From: Psychrobacter aquimaris
GTDB lineage: Bacteria; Pseudomonadota; Gammaproteobacteria; Pseudomonadales; Moraxellaceae
Direction of reading: 5' to 3'
Assembly: GCF_016107525.1 (NCBI RefSeq)
Contig: NZ_JABASR010000007.1
Coordinates: forward strand, 1-64,000
Length of the DNA stretch: 64,000 nucleotides
Part shown: positions 32,012 to 44,206 of the stretch, piece after piece
How the letters are laid out: every line of letters begins with the position of its first letter
Position numbering within the stretch: the stretch's first letter is position 1
Made by a program: the position numbers and the translations under genes
Notes under the pieces: model-generated
What the model saw: only the letters and a program-made list of their open reading frames with translations
The model's database searches: none
What the model was told of the DNA's origin: nothing

Positions 32012-34366
32012 ATGCCGACGTTATCAACACCTTCTAACTATAAAAAATATTTTCGTTCACAAAAGCCGACCTGTATCTTGACCAGTCGTGCATTATTGAG
32101 CATTGCTATCACCTCTATCATTAGCACGACAGCACTCGCCTCTGACACCAATGAGCTGGCGACCATGCAAGTAGCAGCGCAAGACGCGACTGAGTCAGAA
32201 ACCATGCCCTCTACCGAGCTTGATACCATTGTCGTCGTTGCGGCAAGGGAGGAGCTCGTACAGGCGCCAGGTCTGTCTGTCATTAGTGAGGAAGCCATCG
32301 AAAAAGCGTCAGTTTCTAATGATATCTCAGAAATCGTGCGTAAGATGCCAGGGGTGAACCTTTCAGGTTCGTCTACTTCTGGTCAACGAGGCAACCAGCG
32401 CCAAATAGATCTGCGCGGCATGGGGCCGAATAACACGCTCATCTTAATTGATGGGCGTCCAGTGACGTCACGTAACGCGGTGCGTCCTGGCCGTGCCAGT
32501 GAACAAGACACGCGCGGTGACTCACAGTGGGTGCCGCCAAGCGCCATTGAGCGTATCGAAGTATTGCGCGGTCCAGCCGCCGCCCGTTATGGTTCGGGAA
32601 GTATGGGCGGGGTCGTCAATATCATCACCAAGTCTCCCAATAAAAAAGAGTTTTCGGTGACTGGTCACTATGAGATGCCAGAAAGCGATCTTGAGGGTAA
32701 AGATTGGCGCACCAATATCAACATGGCAGGGCCATTGACAGATAAGCTGTCTTTTCGTACCACACTTGGCTATCACGATAGTGAAGGTGACGATCCTTAT
32801 ATCAATGCAGATGATGCTCAAATTGTTGATGGTCGTAGTGGACCAGCAGCGTCTGTTGCCGCCGGTCGTGAAGGGGTTGAGAATATAGACGCGCGCCAGT
32901 TGTTTGAATATGCCATGGATGCAATGAATACCGTTGGCTTTGAGGTCAATTATAGTAATCAAAGCAATCGCTGGGCAGGTGATTCGCAATTTCAGACAGT
33001 GAATGATGACTTGGTCAATGCGCTGGCAGGTCAAGAAACCAACAAGATGGAGCGTTATGGTGCGGCATTGACTCATCGCGGTGAGTATGACGATGCCAGT
33101 AGCAACAGCTATATAGAATATACACGCACTCTTAATGAGCGCTTAAATGAAGGTAATGGCGGTAGTGTTGAAGGACAAATTTCAGTCCCTGAGGCAGGAG
33201 CAGAATATACATGGACAGAAGCTACCTATGATACGTTAAATGCAAAATCAGAGTGGGACATCTACTTTGACCGTCATACACTGACTGCTGGAGCAGAGTT
33301 CCGTGGTGAGAGGTTAGACAATCCGCTGGTTTCTGCTGTAACATTTGATGAAGGGTTTGATTTTGGTGATACAGAGACCGATCCTGCTAAGCGTGATCCA
33401 GTATCAGACGCGTATCTTATTGGTGCTTACTTAGAAGATAACTATCAAATTACACCTGACTGGTATATCACCCCTGGCATACGTTTTGATTATCATGATC
33501 AGGCAGGTAGTAATTGGTCACCTAGTCTGAATACCACTTGGCATTTTAGTCCGAACTGGTCGGTAAAAGCAGGCGCCAGTCGCGCTTTTAAAGCGCCCGC
33601 CCTATATCAGCTGGATCCGAACTATATTTACTATACTCGCGGGAATGGTTGCCCATCAAGCATACCGACTGATGAACGGGGCTGTTATGTCTTAGGAAAC
33701 TCCGAGCTTGAGCATGAAACCTCTTGGAACAAAGAGCTGACCTTTGCTTATAAGGATGACACAGGACTCAATGCAGGGTTGACTTATTATCGCAACGATT
33801 ATGATAACCGTATCGGTGCTGGCATAGAGCGTGTGGGCGTGGTCGGTGTAGTGGCTGACGGTGTCGCTGCCGACCGCTCTGTTTTTCAATGGGAAAACCA
33901 AGGAGAGGCGATCATTGAAGGCCTAGAAGGGTTTGTCAAAGTGCCTGTCACTGATACGGTTTCATGGTCAACCAACTTAACAGGAAATATTCGTTCAGAA
34001 CGCAAAGACACTGGTGAGCCATTGTCCTTAATTCCTAAATTTACGATGAACTCAAATGTCAATTGGGACATTACCCCACGCTGGAATACTGACTTTGGTG
34101 TTAGTTACTATGGACGCATTGATGCCCCCGATGTTTCGGTCACGACTGGTGATGAGCTTGAGACATTAAATCTGGCTCGCAAGCCCTACGCGCTTGCCAA
34201 TGTAAGCACCCGCTATGATTTGACGGATGGTATCACCGTTGGGGCGGGTATAAAGAATTTATTTGATAAACAAATCAAACGAGAAGGGACTGGCACTAAT
34301 GCAGGAGCACGTACTTTTAATGAGCCTGGACGTTATTATGTCTTCGATATCAGGGTTGATTTTTAA
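32012..34366 (+). CDS. TonB-dependent catecholate siderophore receptor (FepA/PfeA type)
   Basis: A 784-residue outer-membrane receptor with a long N-terminal signal region (residues 1-43, ending near TTALAS). Next come a TonB-box-like ELDTIVVVAARE, the plug domain and a 22-strand barrel. The plug reads MPGVNLSGSSTSGQRGNQRQ and MGPNNTLILIDGRPVTSRN, nearly the same as FepA of enterobacteria, then IERIEVLRGPAAARYGSG. The protein ends with an aromatic Phe. It would import ferric enterobactin or a similar catecholate, or act as a receptor for siderophores of other species, since no biosynthesis genes are here. A Fur box precedes it and a terminator follows at 34393. Confidence 0.94.
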   Translation: MPTLSTPSNYKKYFRSQKPTCILTSRALLSIAITSIISTTALASDTNELATMQVAAQDATESETMPSTELDTIVVVAAREELVQAPGLSVISEEAIEKASVSNDISEIVRKMPGVNLSGSSTSGQRGNQRQIDLRGMGPNNTLILIDGRPVTSRNAVRPGRASEQDTRGDSQWVPPSAIERIEVLRGPAAARYGSGSMGGVVNIITKSPNKKEFSVTGHYEMPESDLEGKDWRTNINMAGPLTDKLSFRTTLGYHDSEGDDPYINADDAQIVDGRSGPAASVAAGREGVENIDARQLFEYAMDAMNTVGFEVNYSNQSNRWAGDSQFQTVNDDLVNALAGQETNKMERYGAALTHRGEYDDASSNSYIEYTRTLNERLNEGNGGSVEGQISVPEAGAEYTWTEATYDTLNAKSEWDIYFDRHTLTAGAEFRGERLDNPLVSAVTFDEGFDFGDTETDPAKRDPVSDAYLIGAYLEDNYQITPDWYITPGIRFDYHDQAGSNWSPSLNTTWHFSPNWSVKAGASRAFKAPALYQLDPNYIYYTRGNGCPSSIPTDERGCYVLGNSELEHETSWNKELTFAYKDDTGLNAGLTYYRNDYDNRIGAGIERVGVVGVVADGVAADRSVFQWENQGEAIIEGLEGFVKVPVTDTVSWSTNLTGNIRSERKDTGEPLSLIPKFTMNSNVNWDITPRWNTDFGVSYYGRIDAPDVSVTTGDELETLNLARKPYALANVSTRYDLTDGITVGAGIKNLFDKQIKREGTGTNAGARTFNEPGRYYVFDIRVDF

Positions 34367-34392
34367 CTGCTAAACCAGTCATTTGTCTAAAT

Positions 34393-34429
34393 AAAAAAAG
34401 GTCTAAGCAATGTGCTTAGACCTTTTTTT
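34393..34429. terminator. Bidirectional terminator after the siderophore receptor
   Basis: A stem AAAAAAAGGTCTAAGC / GCTTAGACCTTTTTTT with a 5-base loop ends the receptor transcript. Confidence 0.92.
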
Positions 34430-34778
34430 GATTATGCATTTTGAGCTTAGCGTGATAGCTGTATTGATAAATCAACAAATCAAAACCAATCTGGAGACTC
34501 TCGCTAGCCTAATTGTATCAAAACGGATACAGCGGCAGTTTCTATGTTGACACTGTCCGCGGCGCTCACGTATATTTTAGAAAGACTTACTTTAAAGTAC
34601 TCGCTATAAAGCAGTCGTTTTAAAAGAGTCTGTTTTAGAAATGCTATAACTGTCTAAAAAACACAATATCTCAGCATAAAAAGTGCTCTAGTAGCAAGCA
34701 CTCCGCCCTAAAAACAAGCGCATAAATGCACTGCTTATCAGCGCCAGACTACCGTACATTATGAAAAGGATTTTAGAG
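34430..34778 (+). other. Intergenic leader of the alcohol dehydrogenase
   Basis: About 350 bases without a gene. Small hairpins can be drawn but none is convincing. A promoter for the following alcohol dehydrogenase must lie here; no clear motif was assigned. Confidence 0.4.
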
Positions 34779-35909
34779 ATGATTATAACAGAATATATTG
34801 ACATTACCGCCGCAGTCACCCGAGAAAAGGGAGCTGACTTTACCTTGGAGCAAGCCAAAATCCGCGCGCCCAAAGACGATGAAGTACTGGTAAAAATCGT
34901 CGCTACAGGCATGTGCCACACCGATATGATCGTGCGTGACCAAGATTACCCTGTGCCGCTGCCGCTGGTATTGGGTCACGAAGGCGCAGGTATCGTCGAA
35001 AAAGTCGGGCCACTGGTTAAAGATATTGTAGTGGGTGATCATGTGGTACTGAGCTATGGCTATTGCTCACAATGCAGTTCGTGTCATTCAGGTCATGAGC
35101 CCTACTGTAAGGAGTTTTACCCGCGTAATTTTGGTGGCAGTGACATGGACGGTAATAATGCTATTCAAGATGCTGACGGCAACCCCCTTAACGATCATTT
35201 CTTTGCGCAATCCTCATTTGCCACCTATGCGCTCAGTTTAGAGAGCAATACCATCAAGGTCTCTAAAGATGCTCCAATTGAATTGCTTGGCCCATTAGGC
35301 TGCGGCATTCAGACAGGCGCAGGCGCGGTCATCAATTCGCTAAAAGTGCGCCCGGGCACGAGCTTTGTAACTTTCGGTGCAGGCGCTGTGGGCTTGTCTG
35401 CGGTACTGGCTGCCCAAGTAGCAGGCGCAACCACCATCATCGCAGTCGATGTGGTGCCCTCACGGCTTGAGCTTGCTAAGGAGCTTGGCGCGACCCACGT
35501 CATCAATAGTAAAGAAGAAGACGTGGTCGAAAAGGTGCGTGATATCACAGGTGGCGGCGCGCTATTTGCCTTAGAATCAACGGGTATTCCAGCTGTCTTG
35601 CGTCAAGGTATCGACTCGCTGGGCACACTTGGGACCATTGGTGTCGTAGGCGCACCTGCGCTTGAGACAGATGCCAACTTTGATGTCAATGACTTGCTGC
35701 TTGGCGGTAAATCTATCCAAGGTATTGTTGAGGGTGACGCGACTACCAAAATCTTTATCCCGCAGCTGGTAGAGCTTTATTTACAAGGACGTTTTGCCTT
35801 TGACAAATTGGTCAAATACTATGATTTTAAAGACATCAATCAAGCCGCAAAAGACAGTGCCGAGGGTACTACCTTAAAGCCTATCATTCGTATTGCCGAT
35901 AATGCTTAA
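34779..35909 (+). CDS. Zinc-dependent aryl-alcohol dehydrogenase (XylB-like)
   Basis: A medium-chain dehydrogenase of 376 residues that interconverts benzyl- or aryl-type alcohols and aldehydes with NAD. Catalytic-zinc ligands are in GMCHTDM and GHEGAG; four structural-zinc cysteines are in CSQCSSCHSGHEPYC; the Rossmann motif is FGAGAVGLSAVLAAQVAGA. GCGIQTGAGAVINSL is a hallmark of the benzyl-alcohol dehydrogenase branch. ATG 34779 has AAGGA 8 bases upstream and is preferred to ATG 34761. It stands alone between terminators. With the broken aldehyde dehydrogenase and TPP relic it suggests an older, partly lost benzaldehyde-type route. Confidence 0.9.
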   Translation: MIITEYIDITAAVTREKGADFTLEQAKIRAPKDDEVLVKIVATGMCHTDMIVRDQDYPVPLPLVLGHEGAGIVEKVGPLVKDIVVGDHVVLSYGYCSQCSSCHSGHEPYCKEFYPRNFGGSDMDGNNAIQDADGNPLNDHFFAQSSFATYALSLESNTIKVSKDAPIELLGPLGCGIQTGAGAVINSLKVRPGTSFVTFGAGAVGLSAVLAAQVAGATTIIAVDVVPSRLELAKELGATHVINSKEEDVVEKVRDITGGGALFALESTGIPAVLRQGIDSLGTLGTIGVVGAPALETDANFDVNDLLLGGKSIQGIVEGDATTKIFIPQLVELYLQGRFAFDKLVKYYDFKDINQAAKDSAEGTTLKPIIRIADNA

Positions 35910-36009
35910 AAGTTATTTGTCTATAAGAAATGGGCAAATGTATTATCAGGTATGTTATTGATAGCTTGTATCGCAAATCCGCATAAAAATTTTCATTTTC
36001 TTTCAATAT

Positions 36010-36044
36010 AAAAAGGTCTGAGCCATTCGCTCAGACCTTTTTTG
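36010..36044 (+). terminator. Terminator after the aryl-alcohol dehydrogenase
   Basis: A stem AAAAAGGTCTGAG / CTCAGACCTTTTTT with a 7-base loop. It is similar in sequence to the terminator at 34393. Confidence 0.92.
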
Positions 36045-36090
36045 TTTTATCGACTGCTCTTTTTATTAATTCGTTGTTTTTATTCTACAA

Positions 36091-36537
36091 TTATTTTGCC
36101 CAAAAAAGTTCTAGTTTGGGTTTAATGATTAACGAGAGAATAATTGAAAAGAAAATGCCAATCGGTAGGGCGGTCAATAAACTGGCGATCCACATATAGA
36201 GAAAATGATGCCAATCAGAGAAGTCACTGAGATTAATCGTGGTAACCACGGCCATGATTGACTCCATGATGATTGCCATGCATAGACCAAAAATGACATT
36301 CATCTGCACGGTGGAAATATCTGGCAATACCGCCCGTAATATTTTATTGATTAGCATGGCGATCACACCACCGATAGGTGCAATGCAGATCACGCAAAGC
36401 GCAAAAGAGCTCAGCCAAGCACGCATAAAACTATCCCCAAAACCGATATTATTCCAAGTCATGACAAAAGTGAGCGTCCCACCGATAACCGCTACTATAC
36501 TAAAAATGATAAATATTTTTTTGCAAGTCTTAAGCAT
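36091..36537 (-). CDS. Small membrane protein with two DUF2798 repeats
   Basis: A 148-residue inner-membrane protein with four predicted helices. It consists of two similar halves, each with a T-x-x-N motif in the loop (VMTWNNIGFGDSFMRAW and VTTINLSDFSDWHHFLYMW) followed by a helix with A-P-I-G or L-P-I-G. This is the DUF2798 pattern; single-repeat versions of about 70-80 residues are common. Function is unknown. The ribosome site is weak. It is alone, divergent from the Zur-boxed ABC operon, with 285 bases between, so the same promoter region may affect both. Confidence 0.8.
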   Translation of the reverse strand: MLKTCKKIFIIFSIVAVIGGTLTFVMTWNNIGFGDSFMRAWLSSFALCVICIAPIGGVIAMLINKILRAVLPDISTVQMNVIFGLCMAIIMESIMAVVTTINLSDFSDWHHFLYMWIASLLTALPIGIFFSIILSLIIKPKLELFWAK

Positions 36538-36771
36538 TTACTTATCCATATTAAATAATTCAAGCACAGTATAGCCATATATTTTTGCGAAAGGCAGTCT
36601 TGTTCTTTTGGTATTTTTCTGTACAAAGCAATGAATTTACTCGATATTTTGATGAAAATTATGATGCGTAAGTGATGTGTTTTTATAAGGTTAATACCGT
36701 TTTGAACTCATAAAATGACATGAGGATTGGTACTCAGCCTCAGTAGAAAAAGGTTTACCTTTAATACCTTT

Positions 36772-36817
36772 CGTTATAACATAACGTTTTTTTTGAAATG
36801 TTATAATATAACGGAAA
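36772..36817 (+). promoter_or_regulatory. Two Zur-like operators before the ABC importer
   Basis: CGTTATAACATAACG (36772-36786) is a perfect palindrome. GTTATAATATAAC (36800-36812), preceded by GAAAT, reproduces the left part and core of the gammaproteobacterial Zur consensus (GAAATGTTATA-N-TATAACATTTC). The second box ends 10 bases before ATG 36823 and overlaps the GGAA ribosome site. Zinc-dependent repression of the operon is therefore likely. Confidence 0.75.
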
Positions 36818-36822
36818 AGTAT

Positions 36823-38379
36823 ATGAGAAAAATTGCTTTAATTTCTGTGCTAATAGCCCTAGCAGGACTAGCATGGTATTTCATTGCTGGCGCTAAGCCG
36901 TCAGACGGTCAGACAGCCTCTACGCCTCAGGGCAATGAACAACAAAACTTAATCGTGGTCACACCATGGGAAATAACGTCTACTGATCCTAGTAAGTCGG
37001 GATTTATTTTTCAGCGTTTGCAGATTGCCGAAACGCTGGTAGATGCCAAACAAAATGCTGAGTTGCAACCCATGCTGGCACAAAGTTGGTCTGCCAATGA
37101 GAACGGCGATGTGTGGACGTTTGTGCTGCGTGATGGCGTGAAATTCCATGACAGCTCGCCACTGACGGCAGATGATGTGGTCAAAAGTTTGCAGGTGGCG
37201 CTCAGCAAGCCCACTGCTTTGGAGTCAGCGGCTATTGCAGAAATGAAAGCGATTGATAGCAAGACGGTTGAAATCACATTAGATAAGCCGCTCATGTCTT
37301 TCCCCGCTTATCTGGCACATGCGACCAGTATTATCTTAGCTAGCTCATCGTTTGATGAGAATAACGAGGTCACTCAGCTTATTGGTACAGGGCCATACTA
37401 TGTCACCAAATTTGAGCCACCACAAAAAATCGAGCAAAAAGCGTTTGCCGATTACTGGGGCGAGAAAGCTAAGATCCAAGACATTACTTACTTAGCCAAT
37501 AGCCGTAGCGAAACGCGTACGTTACTGGCGCAGAGCAAACCTAATTACCTCGTGTTTACCTTAGATTCAGCGAGTCTAACCCGCCTAAAGCAGGACCCCA
37601 ATCTACAAGTTCAGTCAAAGTCATTGGCGCGTACTATCGAATATAAAGTCAATGCGGACAATCCGTTGTTTAGCGATGTGCGTGTTCGTCAAGCGCTTAG
37701 TGATGCCATTGATAGACAAGGCATTGCCCAATCTGTGATGCATGCGGGTGATGCGGCAGCCACGCAAATACTGCCACCAATATTTAAAGACTGGCAAATC
37801 AAAACGCAAAGTAAGCAGCCAGGTCCCCAAGCGATTAAGCAGCGCTTATTAGACGCAGGCTTTACTGAAGATAGCGATGGCATGCTACAAAAAGACGGTA
37901 AGCCCTTTAAATTTACCTTACTCACATTCTCAGATCGTCCTGAATTACCCATTATTGCCACCGCTTTGCAAGCACAATGGAAAAAAATTGGGGTAGATGT
38001 GGACGTGTCCGTGGGTAATTTTTCAGAGATTCCATCAGGTCATCAAGACGGCACGCTGGAGATGGGACTATATGCGCGTAACTACGGCATGACGCCTGAT
38101 CCAGTCGGCTCGCTGGTAGAGGATTTTGACCCACAAGGCAGCGATTGGGGCGTGATGAATTGGCAAAATCCAGAGCTGACCAAGCGTTTATTGATGCTTG
38201 AGACGACCAAAGGCAATGATGTGGCGACTAAGCAGCGCGTCTCGCAAATCATTTTTGATGAGCGTCCTATCGTGCCTGTGGTGTACTACCAACAAAATGC
38301 CGCTGCACACAAGTCATTAAAAGGCTTAGAAATCGATGGTTTGGAGCGAAACTTTTATTTAAACAAGTTGTCTTGGTAA
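36823..38379 (+). CDS. ABC transporter substrate-binding protein (NikA/OppA class)
   Basis: A 518-residue periplasmic binding protein from ATG 36823; the frame extends upstream to 36727, but across the operators. The N-terminal MRKIALISVLIALAGLAW is a signal peptide or anchor. The body belongs to the SBP_bac_5 family: PMLAQSWSANENGDVWTF, LRDGVKFHDSSPLTADDVV near 125-145, IGTGPYYVTKF and VRQALSDAIDRQGIAQS. The family includes nickel, opine-metallophore and peptide receptors. With the Zur-like boxes, a zinc-related ligand is the best guess. Permease and ATPase genes follow in order. Confidence 0.9.
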   Translation: MRKIALISVLIALAGLAWYFIAGAKPSDGQTASTPQGNEQQNLIVVTPWEITSTDPSKSGFIFQRLQIAETLVDAKQNAELQPMLAQSWSANENGDVWTFVLRDGVKFHDSSPLTADDVVKSLQVALSKPTALESAAIAEMKAIDSKTVEITLDKPLMSFPAYLAHATSIILASSSFDENNEVTQLIGTGPYYVTKFEPPQKIEQKAFADYWGEKAKIQDITYLANSRSETRTLLAQSKPNYLVFTLDSASLTRLKQDPNLQVQSKSLARTIEYKVNADNPLFSDVRVRQALSDAIDRQGIAQSVMHAGDAAATQILPPIFKDWQIKTQSKQPGPQAIKQRLLDAGFTEDSDGMLQKDGKPFKFTLLTFSDRPELPIIATALQAQWKKIGVDVDVSVGNFSEIPSGHQDGTLEMGLYARNYGMTPDPVGSLVEDFDPQGSDWGVMNWQNPELTKRLLMLETTKGNDVATKQRVSQIIFDERPIVPVVYYQQNAAAHKSLKGLEIDGLERNFYLNKLSW

Positions 38380-38448
38380 GTCGTCTTTACTGTCATTTGC
38401 TTTATAACGCCAATTCTTTATAACACTGAAAAATTGTAATGGATAACT

Positions 38449-39387
38449 ATGTTTAAATATATTGCTCATCGAGTGCTGCAGCTGCTCTTGGTTATCTGGT
38501 CGGTCGGCACATTGACCTTTGTGCTGACTCGCAGTTTGCCCGGTGATATGGCGTACCGCATCGCGGCCAGTCGCTACGGGTATGACCAAACCGATGCCGC
38601 CGCCGCCGCACTGGTGCGCTCAGAGCTTGGTCTGGATCAACCGTGGTGGCAAAGCTACTTTGACTGGCTGCTCGATTTGGTTCAGTTTAATCTCGGGCAT
38701 TCGCTGGTCAGTGGCGAGTCTATATGGGCTGAGATTGCGCATCAGTTTGGACACACGCTGTCCCTAGCATTGGCGGCATTGGTGATATCGGTTTTTATCG
38801 GGCCGCCGCTTGGCTTACTTGCCGCGCAAAAACCCAATGGCTGGTTTGATCGTCTGACTTTGGTGGCGAGTACCGTACTGCGCTCTGTGCCTATTTTTAT
38901 TATTGGTATTGCGCTTATCACGCTACTCGCCGTCCAAATAAAATGGCTACCCGCTGCAGGTTATGGCACGCCGCAACATTATATTCTGCCGGCATTGACC
39001 TTGGCAATTGGGCTGTCTGCGGTATCGGTTCGCGTCAGTCGCCATGCAATGGTACAAGTGCAAACGTCTGAATATTATGATTTTGCTCAGTTAAAGGGAC
39101 TGAATAAATGGACGGCATTTTGTCGGCATGGCCTACGTAACGTGACTATTCCGATTTTGGCTTATCACTCAGTCCAGTTGGTGTATTTGGTTGAAGGGGT
39201 AGTGATTGTGGAGAGTTTGTTTGCTTGGCCTGGTAGTGGTCATGCGTTGGTGCATGCCATCGTCGCGCGTGATGTGCCGATGATACAAGGTACCGCGTTG
39301 ATTATGGGCGGTATGTTTGTGGTGCTCAATATGGTGGTGGATTTGCTCAGTGGTCTGATCGATCCGCGTATTGATTTGGCACGTTAA
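38449..39387 (+). CDS. ABC transporter permease, first subunit (NikB/DppB class)
   Basis: A 312-residue inner-membrane permease with about six helices. It starts MFKYIAHRVLQLLLVIWSVG, the standard N-terminus of DppB/NikB proteins, with a long periplasmic loop containing SELGLDQPWWQSYFDWLLDL. The cytoplasmic EAA loop near residues 205-230 (YDFAQLKGLNKWTAFCRHGLR) binds the ATPase, and the protein ends with a DLLSGLIDPRI motif common to this class. It follows the binding-protein gene by 69 bases. Confidence 0.93.
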   Translation: MFKYIAHRVLQLLLVIWSVGTLTFVLTRSLPGDMAYRIAASRYGYDQTDAAAAALVRSELGLDQPWWQSYFDWLLDLVQFNLGHSLVSGESIWAEIAHQFGHTLSLALAALVISVFIGPPLGLLAAQKPNGWFDRLTLVASTVLRSVPIFIIGIALITLLAVQIKWLPAAGYGTPQHYILPALTLAIGLSAVSVRVSRHAMVQVQTSEYYDFAQLKGLNKWTAFCRHGLRNVTIPILAYHSVQLVYLVEGVVIVESLFAWPGSGHALVHAIVARDVPMIQGTALIMGGMFVVLNMVVDLLSGLIDPRIDLAR

Positions 39388-39483
39388 TCATTACTGCCAA
39401 AGCCATTATCAAAAAGCCTTATTACAAAATGGCAACCACGAACTGAAGCCACAAACTGAAGCCACATGAGGAATTATGATTTT

Positions 39484-40287
39484 ATGACTATTTTTAGCGG
39501 GGTTCATGCCCTACAGCCAGTACAAAAATTTGGCGGGCTACTACTTATCTTGTTATTGGTGTTTGCGTTTTTGCAGCCGCTGTACTATCCGATAGATGCC
39601 GACATACAAGACCTTGGAAATATGTTGCAATCGTCCAGTATCAGCCATTGGTTTGGCACCGATCACTTTGGTCGAGATATGCTGGCACGCGTCGCCTCAG
39701 CTATTCGTTTGTCGTTTTTACTGATTGTCCTATCGGTAGGTTTTGCCCTATTTTTTGGACTGTTGATGGGTGTGCTCAGCGGCTATTTTGGTAGCTGGGT
39801 GGATAAGATATGCACCTTTTTGTGTGACATTATCATGGCGCTACCGGGGTTGCTATTTATCTTATTGTTTGCAGCGATTGCACCCAACACCTTTTGGTCG
39901 CTCTATCTTGGTATATCCTTGGTGCTCTGGGTTGAGTTCTTTCGCATGGTGCGCGCCATGACGCAAACGATTGCCAGTAGCCGAGAGATCGAAGCGTCGC
40001 GTCTGATGGGTATGGATTTTTTCTATTGTTTTAAACGACACTTTTTACCCAAGATTTTGCCCGTTGTCGCCACTTTAAGTGCATTTGCGGCAGGCAATGC
40101 GGTGCTCGCGCTTGCCACGCTAGGCTTTATCAATGTTGGTTTGCGTCCGCCTACCGCTGAGCTAGGGCTGATGATGACGGAGCTGTTTCCGTATTACTAT
40201 CAAGCGCCGTTTGTGTTTCTCCAGCCTATTATTGCCGTCTTTATTTTGGTCTTAAGCCTACAATTACTCTCAGGAAAAATGAAATGA
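39484..40287 (+). CDS. ABC transporter permease, second subunit (NikC/DppC class)
   Basis: A 267-residue permease from ATG 39484, with GAGGA 10 bases upstream; ATG 39466 is the alternative and gives 273 residues. It has an N-terminal helix, then the family pattern HWFGTDHFGRDMLARVASAI and the EAA loop REIEASRLMGMDFFYCFKRH. FINVGLRPPTAELGLMM near the C-terminus is typical of DppC/NikC. Its stop overlaps the ATG of the ATPase gene (ATGA at 40284-40287), so translation is probably coupled. Confidence 0.92.
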   Translation: MTIFSGVHALQPVQKFGGLLLILLLVFAFLQPLYYPIDADIQDLGNMLQSSSISHWFGTDHFGRDMLARVASAIRLSFLLIVLSVGFALFFGLLMGVLSGYFGSWVDKICTFLCDIIMALPGLLFILLFAAIAPNTFWSLYLGISLVLWVEFFRMVRAMTQTIASSREIEASRLMGMDFFYCFKRHFLPKILPVVATLSAFAAGNAVLALATLGFINVGLRPPTAELGLMMTELFPYYYQAPFVFLQPIIAVFILVLSLQLLSGKMK

Positions 40288-41825
40288 TCGCGCATACTGC
40301 AGGAGACAATGCTGACAATGCTGACAATGCTGACAATGCTGACAATGCTGACAATGCTGACAATGCTGACAATGCTGACAATGCTGACAATGCTGACAAG
40401 GCCGCCGCAAATGTCTTGGTAAAAACGAACGATTTGGCGGTGTTTACCAAGTCGGGGCTGGGTTTGGTTGAGCCCATCAGTGTCACGTTATACAAAGGCC
40501 AAAATCTGACCATTTTGGGTGAAACAGGGTCGGGTAAAAGTTTGCTAGCGCAAGCCATCATGGGCGCATTGCCTGATGAGCTGGTGAGCCGCGGCGATAT
40601 TTTGATCGAAAACCAAGCGTTAACTAAGCCGGAACTGCGTGAGTATTGGGGTCGCCGCATGGCGATGCTGCCACAAGAGCCAAGTCGTTCGCTGAACCCC
40701 ACGATGGATGTGGTCAGTCAAGTGTGGGAGAGCCTGTATTTTGTTGCCAAGCAAGACAGCAAGGTCAGTAAGCAATTGGCACAAGAGAAGATAGAAGCAC
40801 TAGGGCTAGGCAAATTTGCGGCGTACTATCCGCACGAGCTGTCAGGCGGTATGGCGCAGCGTGCGTCTTTTGCGATTGCCACCTCGGGCGGCGCGTATAT
40901 TGTCATCGCGGATGAGCCGACCAAAGGCTTAGATGAGATCAACAAACAAGCGGTGATTAATCTGCTAAGAAACGTCGCTAAAGAGGGCGGTACGTTGCTT
41001 ACCATCACCCATGATATCGATGTGGCAAGAGCGCTGAGTGTTGGTGCTGATGATCGCATCATGGTAATGAAAAAAGGCAAACTGCTTGAGCAAGGTAAAG
41101 GCGAGCAGGTATTGAACCAACCGATATCAGACTACGCCAAACAACTCATCGCTGCCGCGCCTGATAACTGGCCAGCAAAAAATAGCACAATCATTGAAGA
41201 GCAACCCTTATTGACCGCAAAAGAAGTGAGCTTAGTGCGTGGTAAGCGGGTATTGTTTGAGGGGTTGAGTTTTCGTCTCAAGCGCGCTGAAGTGCTTGGG
41301 GTGATTGGTGGTAGCGGAATTGGTAAAAGTTCACTAGGGGACGCGCTTTGCGGCTTACTAAAACCTGCCAGCGGCGCAATCACATGGCAGAGCAAACCCA
41401 AACGTCATCAAGTGCTAAAGCTGTATCAAGATCCACCAGCCGCCTTTGCCTCACATGTACCACTGAAAATCTTGCTTAATGATATCATCAAAAAGCACCG
41501 GTTAGATGCCAGCCGCGTACCTGAGTTATTAGAAAAGTTAAAGCTGGATAAGCAGATTCTCACTCGCAACGCGCTCAATGTCTCGGGCGGGGAGTTGCAA
41601 CGGGTGGCGATTTTGCGCGCATTACTCTTTAATCCTGTTTTGCTGTTTGCTGATGAGGTTACTTCCAGACTCGATCCCATCACCCAAAGAGAAACGCTGG
41701 ATTTGCTGGTCACACAGTGCCAAGCCCAGCAGTGCACGCTAGTGATGGTCAGCCATGATCATCACATCATGCGCCATTACTGCCATCAAGTGATTGACTT
41801 AGAACGCTTTACTAAACCGTCATAA
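40284..41825 (+). CDS. Fused double ATPase of the nickel/peptide-type ABC importer
   Basis: A 513-residue protein with two complete ABC ATPase domains, equal to NikD plus NikE in one chain. First domain: Walker A GETGSGKS, signature LSGGMAQR, Walker B IVIADEPT. Second: Walker A GGSGIGKS, signature VSGGELQR, Walker B LLFADEVT, H-loop MVSHDHH. Residues 7-39 are an added tract of A-D-N triplets coded by a 9-bp tandem repeat (40302-40400) that precedes the first domain and has no counterpart in usual NikD. The start overlaps the permease stop. It powers import by the permeases. Confidence 0.93.
   Translation: MIAHTAGDNADNADNADNADNADNADNADNADNADNADKAAANVLVKTNDLAVFTKSGLGLVEPISVTLYKGQNLTILGETGSGKSLLAQAIMGALPDELVSRGDILIENQALTKPELREYWGRRMAMLPQEPSRSLNPTMDVVSQVWESLYFVAKQDSKVSKQLAQEKIEALGLGKFAAYYPHELSGGMAQRASFAIATSGGAYIVIADEPTKGLDEINKQAVINLLRNVAKEGGTLLTITHDIDVARALSVGADDRIMVMKKGKLLEQGKGEQVLNQPISDYAKQLIAAAPDNWPAKNSTIIEEQPLLTAKEVSLVRGKRVLFEGLSFRLKRAEVLGVIGGSGIGKSSLGDALCGLLKPASGAITWQSKPKRHQVLKLYQDPPAAFASHVPLKILLNDIIKKHRLDASRVPELLEKLKLDKQILTRNALNVSGGELQRVAILRALLFNPVLLFADEVTSRLDPITQRETLDLLVTQCQAQQCTLVMVSHDHHIMRHYCHQVIDLERFTKPS
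40302..40400 (+). repeat. 9-bp tandem repeat inside the ATPase gene
   Basis: Nine perfect copies of GCTGACAAT at 40311-40391, flanked by GGAGACAAT (40302) and GCTGACAAG (40392), one variant on each side. The repeat codes (Ala-Asp-Asn)n. Since the unit is three codons, copy-number slippage keeps the frame and only changes the length of an acidic linker. Confidence 0.97.
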
Positions 41826-41840
41826 TGGCCGACAACGCAC

Positions 41841-41877
41841 AAAAAAGTCCAAAAACGATGGTTTTTGGACTTTTTTT
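41841..41877. terminator. Bidirectional terminator after the ABC importer operon
   Basis: A stem AAAAAAGTCCAAAAAC / GTTTTTGGACTTTTTTT with a 4-base loop lies between the ATPase and the convergent permease gene. Confidence 0.92.
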
Positions 41878-41928
41878 ATTGACGATGTTCTTTTGTGTAG
41901 ACGCTGTTATAAATAACTATGAGCTTGA

Positions 41929-43254
41929 TTAATTTAGCACCTGCTTTGCTTGATAGCGACTATAGTAATAAATCGCTAATCCCGGTATATAGAGCAAGAG
42001 TGACAACAGCAGGTTATCCACGCCAGCCGCATAGATTAGCCAAATACCGTAGACACTCGCACCCAGACCGATGGCTTTGATGCTCCAGCGCTCTGACTGC
42101 GCAAATGAGACTTTGACCAAATAGGCACCGACCAAAAAGTAAGGAATCAAAATCATCGAGGTAGAGATAATCACTAAGGTGTTATAACCCTCACCCGTCA
42201 AAAAGATCATCAATAAGCACAGCTGAACGGTGGCACTAGTCAGCAGCAGTGATGCAGTCGGTGTGCCTTGCTCATTTTGCTTAGTAAAGATACGCGGAAA
42301 GGCATTGTACTTGGCAGCGGTAAACGGCACTTCGGCAGAGTAGAGAATCCAACTGAGATAAGACGCCAAGACCGAGATGATAAGCCCAATACTAATGACC
42401 CATTTGCCTACGTCACCCGTCATTTGCGCCATGATGCCTGCCATTGAGGGATTGCTAAGTGCCGCCACATCAACGCGGCTCATGACCCCAAGCGAAAGCA
42501 GGGTGATGGCAATATACAGCACCAGCGCGAACAATACGCCGATATAAGTAGCACGGCCGATATCAGAACGCTTTTTGGCGCGCTGTGATAAGACAATCGC
42601 GCCTTCGATACCCGTAAATACCCATAGTGTAATTAGCATGGTCCCTTTGACCTGCTCCATAAACGGCACTTCTAACGTCGTACCTGCGCGGTCAGCATTA
42701 AAGGTCTGCATATCGAAAGCATAATAGGCAAACACAATAAAAGCAATCAGCGGTAGGCTTTTTGCCAAGGTCGCCAGCAGGTTAATAAAGGCCGCTTGTT
42801 TGACGCCGCGCAGTACCAAATAATGCACTAACCATAAGATAATCGATTCACCAATTAGTGCGCCAATCGTGTTGCCTTCACCAAAGACAATACTAGTTGG
42901 CGTATCAATAAAGCTACCCAATGCTGCAAACGCCACGACCAAATAACCCACCACACCAATGGTGGCACACAGCCAATAACCCCATGCTGAAAAGAAGCCT
43001 GCCAAATCGCCAAACCCTGTTTTGGCATAAGTATAAATACCGCCATCCAGTTCAGGCTTCAGGCGTGATAAATGCAAAAAGCAGCCTGCGAGGAACAAAA
43101 TACCCACGCCTGTGATGATCCATGCAGTGATGATAGCGTCCACGCCTGCCACTTCGGCCATGTTTTGCGGTAGGCTAAAAATGCCCGCACCGACCATCGA
43201 GCTGAACACGATGGCGGTGAGCATGGTTAGCCCAATTTTTTGTCGATTTTGCAT
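41929..43254 (-). CDS. APC-superfamily amino-acid permease
   Basis: A 441-residue membrane protein with about twelve helices. The N-terminal IVFSSMVGAGIFSLPQNMAE is the unwound helix-1 substrate motif of the basic amino acid/polyamine antiporter (ArcD/APA) family, and LWVFTGIEGAIVLSQRAKKR in helix 6 is equally typical. It ends 11 bases from the homocysteine S-methyltransferase gene on the same strand, so both are probably co-transcribed. In that context it may import S-methylmethionine, although the classic MmuP is from a neighbouring APC branch; a basic or other amino acid is possible. Confidence 0.85.
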   Translation of the reverse strand: MQNRQKIGLTMLTAIVFSSMVGAGIFSLPQNMAEVAGVDAIITAWIITGVGILFLAGCFLHLSRLKPELDGGIYTYAKTGFGDLAGFFSAWGYWLCATIGVVGYLVVAFAALGSFIDTPTSIVFGEGNTIGALIGESIILWLVHYLVLRGVKQAAFINLLATLAKSLPLIAFIVFAYYAFDMQTFNADRAGTTLEVPFMEQVKGTMLITLWVFTGIEGAIVLSQRAKKRSDIGRATYIGVLFALVLYIAITLLSLGVMSRVDVAALSNPSMAGIMAQMTGDVGKWVISIGLIISVLASYLSWILYSAEVPFTAAKYNAFPRIFTKQNEQGTPTASLLLTSATVQLCLLMIFLTGEGYNTLVIISTSMILIPYFLVGAYLVKVSFAQSERWSIKAIGLGASVYGIWLIYAAGVDNLLLSLLLYIPGLAIYYYSRYQAKQVLN

Positions 43255-43264
43255 CGCACTGTCT

Positions 43265-44206
43265 CTATTTTGTCGAAGTACCTGTTGTCAAAGTACTTGT
43301 GAAATACTGGCTCAATTCCTGAATGTGCTCAGGGCCAATACCGCAGCAGCCGCCGATCAGTGATGCGCCTTGGGTTTGCCATTTCTTTGCCCAGACCAAA
43401 TACGCAGGCGGGGTTAGGTCGTCACGCACTTCATCAAGGCCGTCATTGGCGGTGGCGTCTTTTGTCTGTGGTGGGAAAGCATTGGCATAAGCGCCAAGTT
43501 TGATGTGTGCAGCATCTTTGTCTTGCAAAACGTTTTGCGCCACATCAAGGGCTTGGTCGATCACTTCTGGCTGACAGCAGTTAAACAAGATCGCTTCTAC
43601 ATTGATATCCGCCATTTTGGTAACGGCTTCTTCTACCGTTTCGCCTGAGCGCAGACGCGGTACATCGAGATGCTCACTGTCTTCTAGCGTGAATGACACC
43701 CATAGCGGTTTGTTGTCGGTATCTAGCGTATCAAGTAGCGCACGTACCGCAACCGACTCTGCGATCAAGCTTTGGGTTTCTGCTAGCCAAAAATCCACAT
43801 GTTTGCTCAAACCCTTGATAAGTGGCGTTGCGATATCTTCGACATGCTCAGCGTCAAATAAGTCAGCACGGTATGAGCCAAATAGCGGCGGGATTGAACC
43901 TGCAATCTTAGTATCGCTGCCTTCCATGTCGACAGCGGCGCGTGCCATCTCGCCTGCTGAGGCGGCTAACTCTTGCGCCTGATTGGCAAAACGCTCTTCG
44001 CCAATATGAAAGGGCACGAGCGCATAGCTGTTGGTGGTGATGACTGCTGCGCCGCTTTGGATAAAGGCGCGATGCACGTCACGGACGATCTCAGGTGCTT
44101 CGATCATTGCCAGCGCCGACCATTCAGGCTGACGAAATGGCGCGCCGCGTTTAGCAAGTTCGCGTCCCAAACCGCCGTCAATAATAGTGACTGAATTAGT
44201 TGCCAT
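43265..44206 (-). CDS. mmuM: Homocysteine S-methyltransferase
   Basis: A 313-residue zinc enzyme that moves a methyl group from S-methylmethionine (or S-adenosylmethionine) to homocysteine, giving methionine. It starts TIIDGGLGRELAKRGAP. The zinc ligands are a Cys in FNCCQPE near residue 215 and the Cys-Cys pair of IGGCCGIGPEHI near 290, the complete family set. Visible GAGGGAT precedes the ATG. The downstream permease gene probably brings in the methyl donor. There is no SAM riboswitch-like fold visible upstream. Confidence 0.92.
   Translation of the reverse strand: MATNSVTIIDGGLGRELAKRGAPFRQPEWSALAMIEAPEIVRDVHRAFIQSGAAVITTNSYALVPFHIGEERFANQAQELAASAGEMARAAVDMEGSDTKIAGSIPPLFGSYRADLFDAEHVEDIATPLIKGLSKHVDFWLAETQSLIAESVAVRALLDTLDTDNKPLWVSFTLEDSEHLDVPRLRSGETVEEAVTKMADINVEAILFNCCQPEVIDQALDVAQNVLQDKDAAHIKLGAYANAFPPQTKDATANDGLDEVRDDLTPPAYLVWAKKWQTQGASLIGGCCGIGPEHIQELSQYFTSTLTTGTSTK

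Follow-up and report, generated by a model that had tools for sequence, protein, structure and literature searches.

A predicted Zur-repressed importer of the NikA/Opp class behind tandem boxes in Psychrobacter aquimaris

A stretch of 64,000 nucleotides from Psychrobacter aquimaris (positions 1 to 64,000 of contig NZ_JABASR010000007.1), here called the window, carries an operon for an ATP-binding cassette (ABC) importer with two palindromes in front of it. The operon most probably encodes an importer that is repressed by Zur, is made when zinc is scarce, and takes in zinc, most likely chelated, by a second route beside ZnuABC. The parts of this reading differ in strength. Control by Zur, predicted from the DNA, is very likely and strongly supported because a matching box lies between zur and znuA, the boxes are conserved with the orthologues of the operon, they are missing where a second FUR-family protein was not found, and there is a precedent in Paracoccus. 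An earlier analysis that used the letters of the DNA without database searches (the sequence-only reading) had already proposed Zur control, and the proposal now has this support. Zinc as the cargo is likely, which we infer from the predicted regulation and from the zinc genes beside some of the relatives. That the zinc comes as a chelate with a scavenged small molecule is plausible and would fit the class of the binding protein.

The four genes run in the same direction and make up a complete NikA/Opp-type importer: a binding protein, two BPD_transp_1 permeases and one protein with two ABC_tran domains (Table 1). The SBP_bac_5 match of the binding protein, the permease family and the Opp/Nik type of the ATPase domains place it among the cluster C (Opp/NikA) importers. 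The Pfam matches agree with the sequence-only reading, which had described a NikABC-like operon with one fused double ATPase. Both palindromes of that reading are where it had placed them. They hold two 13-bp boxes spaced 27 bp, directly before the binding-protein gene. The second had been said to cover the ribosome site, which needs correction: GGAAAAG starts at 36813, directly after the last base of box 2 at 36812. Exact matches to GTTATAANATAAC in the window are confined to these two boxes; with up to two mismatches there are 14 matches where 7.7 are expected, so that weak matches mean little. The TATAAT inside box 2 is a perfect −10 hexamer, and Zur bound there could block the polymerase directly; a consensus promoter scan listed no promoter-like site at box 2. 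Across nine Psychrobacter promoters, identity is 92–93% in the columns of the boxes and 62% further upstream, but it also reaches 87% between the boxes.

The rest of the genome ties the box to zinc. The 3.43-Mb sequence has four exact GTTATANNATAAC sites: two at the operon, a third between the divergent genes zur and znuA, and a fourth ahead of a secreted protein rich in His. The sequence-only reading had proposed looking for the box before known zinc genes, and the intergenic zur–znuA site (C41:86920) is such a case. The Zur protein there is a second FUR-family protein (C41:86309-86557) adjoining znuA. Its FUR match scores 24.7 bits against a cut-off of 23.1, and its top NCBIfam model is Zur, at 99 bits and hence below the cut-off of 167. 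ZnuA passes its Pfam cut-off, and a znuC-like gene, named by eye, follows zur. All three genes are on a different contig from the importer operon; next to the operon itself no ZnuABC-type gene occurs among the nine proteins scanned (32012-44206), as had been stated earlier. A search for ZnuD in the genome gave no match at 1e-30. By eye, Zur (L004:857-1450) has a Gln/Pro/Lys-rich, insert-like stretch in its DNA-binding half. The His-rich secreted protein (L001:924-1565; C3, near 96915) has the exact box close to its start, has no Pfam or NCBIfam match, and has box-carrying relatives in three sister genomes. Two weak adjacent box-like sites, which may be chance, lie at C11:324015-324051, with a carbonic-anhydrase-like gene on one side and a LysR-like regulator on the other (both named by eye).

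The boxes are conserved with the operon in Moraxellaceae. A search of 199 genomes of this family found 29 matching places, spread over 25 genomes: 18 orthologues (our own included, at least 57% identical) and 11 distant paralogues (25–33%). A box lies upstream of every one of the 18 orthologues, exact in 16 and with one mismatch in two. For scoring, a box matrix was built from boxes of other genes only, leaving out every operon box, and a score of at least 15 within 300 nt of the estimated gene start was counted; this threshold was chosen after earlier box results had been seen. By this measure 15 of the 18 orthologues score, the remaining three rows reaching 13.2–13.6 with the exact site GTTATATAATAAC, and none of the 11 paralogues does; for one paralogue, a site with a single mismatch lies some 500 nt ahead of the match. 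Random windows of the same loci score in 7 of 4000 cases, from L195 and L218, which are COG0523 promoters, and from L199. All eight named Psychrobacter loci of a wider search also have the box (six appear to be shared with the 199-genome set, so that two genomes are added).

Six sister genomes together have 36 exact sites, and 19 of these fall at the operon (9), between zur and znuA (4), before the His-rich protein (3), and before a ZnuD-like receptor, a second ZnuA-like protein and a small His-rich protein (1 each). Some box-linked genes of the family deserve separate mention. The ZnuD-like receptor of one sister genome (L171) has His-rich loops. In another Moraxellaceae genus, an exact box stands before the gene of a small protein that is very rich in His and has no Pfam match (L151:1657-2073). 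Exact boxes also precede a RibA-like gene (L156:1553-2146) and an alcohol-dehydrogenase-like gene (L146:1634-2716) in a Moraxellaceae genome, both named by eye.

The wider search, with 30 loci (8 Psychrobacter, 14 Pasteurellaceae, 6 Aeromonas, 1 Cellulomonas and 1 distant Paramagnetospirillum), provides a comparison between two groups that have the importer. An exact box precedes all six Aeromonas operons and none of the 14 from Pasteurellaceae; the Cellulomonas locus and the Paramagnetospirillum match have no exact box. The same split is seen in the regulators: each of the six Aeromonas genomes has two FUR-family proteins, and each of the eight Pasteurellaceae genomes tested, out of 14, has one. 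Pasteurellaceae would thus be a branch that keeps the importer but does not have the boxes in front of it. All 15 GTTATAACATAAC sites of the six Aeromonas genomes could be assigned: six to the operon, six to ytfJ–zrgA and three to type-B L31. ZrgA and L31 were identified by family match and ytfJ by eye; ZrgA belongs by its Pfam name to a zinc-uptake family, and type-B L31 is a Zur target. The matrix scan finds five of the six Aeromonas operons, the sixth being that of A. salmonicida, where a broken gene shifted the estimated start although an exact box precedes the gene. In that strain (ATCC 33658; L087) the gene for the binding protein is split over two reading frames and is apparently broken.

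In a tree of the binding proteins, the 70 orthologues split from the 11 paralogues with a Shimodaira–Hasegawa-like approximate likelihood ratio (SH-aLRT) support of 99, and the proteins of Moraxellaceae and Pasteurellaceae form one group with a support of 100. The tree was built quickly and has several long branches; as the program also gave a warning on the join between the paralogues and the rest, inner placements are unsure. The joint group, despite the distance between the two families, suggests gene transfer. The box turns up in several parts of the tree, so that control by Zur is probably old in the importer family and was probably lost in Pasteurellaceae; we infer this direction of change from the tree.

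The association extends beyond these families. A draw of 398 Pseudomonadota genomes gave 16 orthologues besides our own, nine of which score; in one more the box lies further away, about 820 nt upstream and in front of a DUF1826 gene. On plasmids, 159 records had a match and 13 of them were examined. Eight of these orthologues score, a ninth has a box 30 nt before the annotated start that the estimated start cut off in the matrix scan, and in two the box lies ahead of a COG0523 gene that heads the cluster. Importers of this kind are thus tied to a Zur box in Moraxellaceae, Aeromonas, Pantoea and 10 of the 12 alphaproteobacterial plasmid loci examined.

We picture the operation of the system as follows. 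In zinc-replete cells, zinc-loaded Zur dimers would occupy both tandem boxes and keep the operon off. As zinc runs out, Zur would be released, and the periplasmic binding protein, the two permeases and the fused ATPase would be made. The importer would then take in zinc, most likely complexed with a small chelator from the environment such as histidine, a peptide or a similar molecule, and so serve as the second zinc route beside ZnuABC.

The cargo has to be weighed against other ligands. The structure model of the binding protein has a mean predicted local distance difference test (pLDDT) score of 86.6. Its predicted fold matches binders of the NikA class and of the peptide class about equally, with NikA proteins among the top structures; the fold therefore does not name the ligand, and fold comparison was dropped as a test of metal against peptide. 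An importer of peptides or amino acids that carries no metal, and that zinc starvation induces indirectly, for example for the supply of histidine or cysteine, would account for the dipeptide and oligopeptide binders found at similar scores among the fold and sequence neighbours. We nevertheless consider it unlikely. Both permeases score best with nickel-type models, albeit below cut-off, and zinc-linked genes adjoin 6 of the 13 plasmid relatives. In Phyllobacterium, Pseudosulfitobacter and Pantoea, the cluster contains or adjoins genes for COG0523-type GTPases (named by similarity to a Pantoea protein annotated ZigA). In Skermanella, an AztA-type zinc transporter set and a COG0523-type GTPase are divergent from the operon; in Paracoccus aestuarii, whose binding protein is 41.6% identical to ours, a zinc ABC transporter follows the operon; and in Microvirga, an unannotated record, COG0523 and AztC-like genes lie near it by tblastn. 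A conserved residue also speaks against a plain peptide importer: His407, in a low-confidence loop (404–408), is present in 69 of the 70 orthologues and in none of the 11 paralogues. His109 has the same distribution (69/70 and 0/11), and His166 is found in 58 of 70 and 5 of 11, respectively. These residues suit a metal or metal-chelate site, although they are no proof of one. One Moraxellaceae orthologue (L097) has in addition a His-rich stretch near the N-terminus.

Slightly less probable still is an importer of nickel, or cobalt, of the NikABCDE kind that has been captured by Zur. In its favor, the top NCBIfam model for the binding protein is Opp5A_nikA (252 bits; cut-off 600), NikA proteins are, as said, among the top structure matches, and the genome has a urease and so needs nickel. 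Membership in NikABCDE was rejected on the scores, which in bits against cut-off are 189/393 for nickel_nikA, 245/447 for nikB, 163/358 for nikC, 240/319 for nikD and 191/333 for nikE. Membership in CntABCDF fared no better (CntA 137/800, CntC 131/440, CntD 231/380 and CntF 227/385). Arg137 has a role in NikA, and both it and His416 are replaced in the P. aquimaris protein. The replacements, counted by hand in an alignment with the NikA chain of structure 2noo, a mutant, are Arg137 to Ala167, His416 to Gly439 and Trp398 to Tyr421; that NikA needs His416 is taken from the title of structure 3qim. The binding protein thus has the NikA fold but, by this alignment, lacks the nickel-linked histidine, and its CntA score is far below cut-off. 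The zinc genes adjoining the relatives, and a box that is that of a zinc regulator, also argue against nickel.

Besides the urease, several results weigh against a zinc importer under Zur. No zinc-linked gene is seen next to the operon at seven of the 13 plasmid loci (most judged by annotation, one record being unannotated). In the stretches scanned, no box was found for 6 of the 16 orthologues of the Pseudomonadota draw, one of which groups with Pasteurellaceae and five of which are unexplained, nor for 2 of the 13 on plasmids. The absence of Zur from Pasteurellaceae is not firm: a diverged Zur could escape the search, as the Zur of P. aquimaris itself is barely above the FUR cut-off, and a review (PMC8000910) counts both Haemophilus influenzae and H. 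ducreyi among the species with Zur. Orthology to pden1341 of Paracoccus rests on layout and class, not on the pden1341 sequence. Finally, the pattern itself is not rare. The reversed GTTATANNATAAC pattern, used as a control, has five forward and two reverse matches in the genome, about as frequent as the pattern itself with its four sites, and 17 of the 36 exact sites of the sister genomes, which precede genes that are unrelated or could not be identified, are possibly chance matches; it is therefore the position and conservation of the boxes that carry the argument. Chance matching in AT-rich DNA can practically be dismissed as the origin of the boxes, given two exact sites 27 bp apart, their identity across Psychrobacter promoters, their presence before the Moraxellaceae and Aeromonas orthologues, and their rarity before paralogues and in random windows.

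We thus prefer a zinc importer under Zur, and tentatively go one step further. The relatives may form a coherent, as yet unnamed, phylum-wide family of importers for zinc on scavenged chelators that the cells do not make themselves. Such a family would be a Gram-negative counterpart of Cnt without a zincophore of its own, its members having a fused ATPase and, around the His407 loop, a site for zinc or the chelate. We hold this to be possible rather than probable. The comparison in any case yields a testable importer family with marked residues. A search for Staph_opine_DH, the one metallophore gene looked for, gave no match in the P. aquimaris genome, and the controls gave none either.

Table 1. 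Features of the importer operon and its upstream region (positions in the window)
Feature	Positions	Strand	Basis
Predicted Zur box 1, CGTTATAACATAACG	36772..36786	.	exact GTTATANNATAAC site; conserved in nine Psychrobacter promoters
Predicted Zur box 2, GAAATGTTATAATATAAC, contains TATAAT hexamer	36795..36812	.	exact GTTATANNATAAC site; conserved in nine Psychrobacter promoters
Likely ribosome-binding site GGAAAAG, abuts box 2	36813..36819	+	suggested by the sequence
Substrate-binding protein, SBP_bac_5 / cluster C, 518 aa	36823..38379	+	Pfam PF00496, 1.7e-76
Permease 1 (NikB/OppB type), 312 aa	38449..39387	+	PF00528, 1.3e-39; top NCBIfam model Opp2B, under cut-off
Permease 2 (NikC/OppC type), 267 aa from ATG 39484	39484..40287	+	PF00528, 3.5e-22
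Fused double ATPase, 513 aa	40284..41825	+	two ABC_tran stretches; ATPases of similar length after permeases in relatives
Likely rho-independent terminator	41841..41876	+	16-bp stem, 4-nt loop, −19.3 kcal/mol, z −7.3; T run

Some features of the locus remain to be described. The start of permease 2 was placed at ATG 39484 from the 267-aa length in several relatives; its reading frame is open from ATG 39466. The ATPase gene start overlaps the permease 2 stop by 4 bases. Near that start, a 9-bp tandem repeat, GACAATGCT, is present in 10.6 copies (40305-40399) and, being in frame, gives a run of Ala-Asp-Asn; an array of this type was not found in the eight other named Psychrobacter loci. The likely terminator is unlisted in the consensus scan. 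Gene-order comparison across genera gave no conserved partner next to the operon. A TonB-dependent siderophore receptor of the FepA family is encoded upstream (32012-34366) and is seemingly unrelated. It was rejected as a part of the system, as no exact box precedes it and it passes the cut-off of the FepA siderophore-receptor family.

The excerpts of PMC7029138 and PMC10563805 that we used hold no importer of this class, and the literature matches listed for Zur in Psychrobacter, Moraxella and Aeromonas, and for Zur with peptide-type importers, include none on the present importer there. ZnuABC and AztABCD are similar in the predicted control by Zur and the role in zinc starvation; they differ in having cluster A-I binding proteins, of another family (PF01297), and the P. 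aquimaris binding protein matches PF00496 only. NikABCDE of Escherichia coli shares the fold of the binding protein and the class of the permeases, but its nickel-linked His416 is not kept here. In E. coli, NikD and NikE are separate proteins, and control is by NikR.

Closer comparisons come from systems already linked to Zur. In Corynebacterium diphtheriae, the four-gene importers dip2125-2128 and dip2162-2165 are described as regulated by zinc and Zur (PMC6711530). A likeness to NikA/OppA is stated for one of them, and the second is said to resemble the first; they are actinobacterial, and one is tied to sidAB. CntABCDF of Staphylococcus aureus is likewise an Opp/NikA-class importer; it carries zinc, is derepressed without Zur, and works with staphylopine (PMC5666155). 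It differs in its separate CntD and CntF ATPases, and a locus for staphylopine synthesis is linked to it. The nearest parallel is in Paracoccus denitrificans, where depletion of zinc from the medium is reported to raise pden1338-1344 by 8.6- to 16-fold, and Zur to bind the pden1341 promoter in an electrophoretic mobility shift assay (PMC5387054). The genes pden1341-1344 share with ours the class, the order of binding protein, permease, permease and single ATPase, and an upstream Zur box with 5-3-5 spacing; the Paracoccus cluster also has a COG0523 gene, as do some relatives of our operon. The two differ in the letters of the box (GTAATATAATAACAT in Paracoccus) and in that the Psychrobacter operon has two boxes and no adjoining COG0523 gene. 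To the Paracoccus authors, a cluster C transporter under Zur is a somewhat unusual case, and they do not commit themselves on what it carries (PMC5387054). The operon described here adds a member to this known but little-explored kind of importer.

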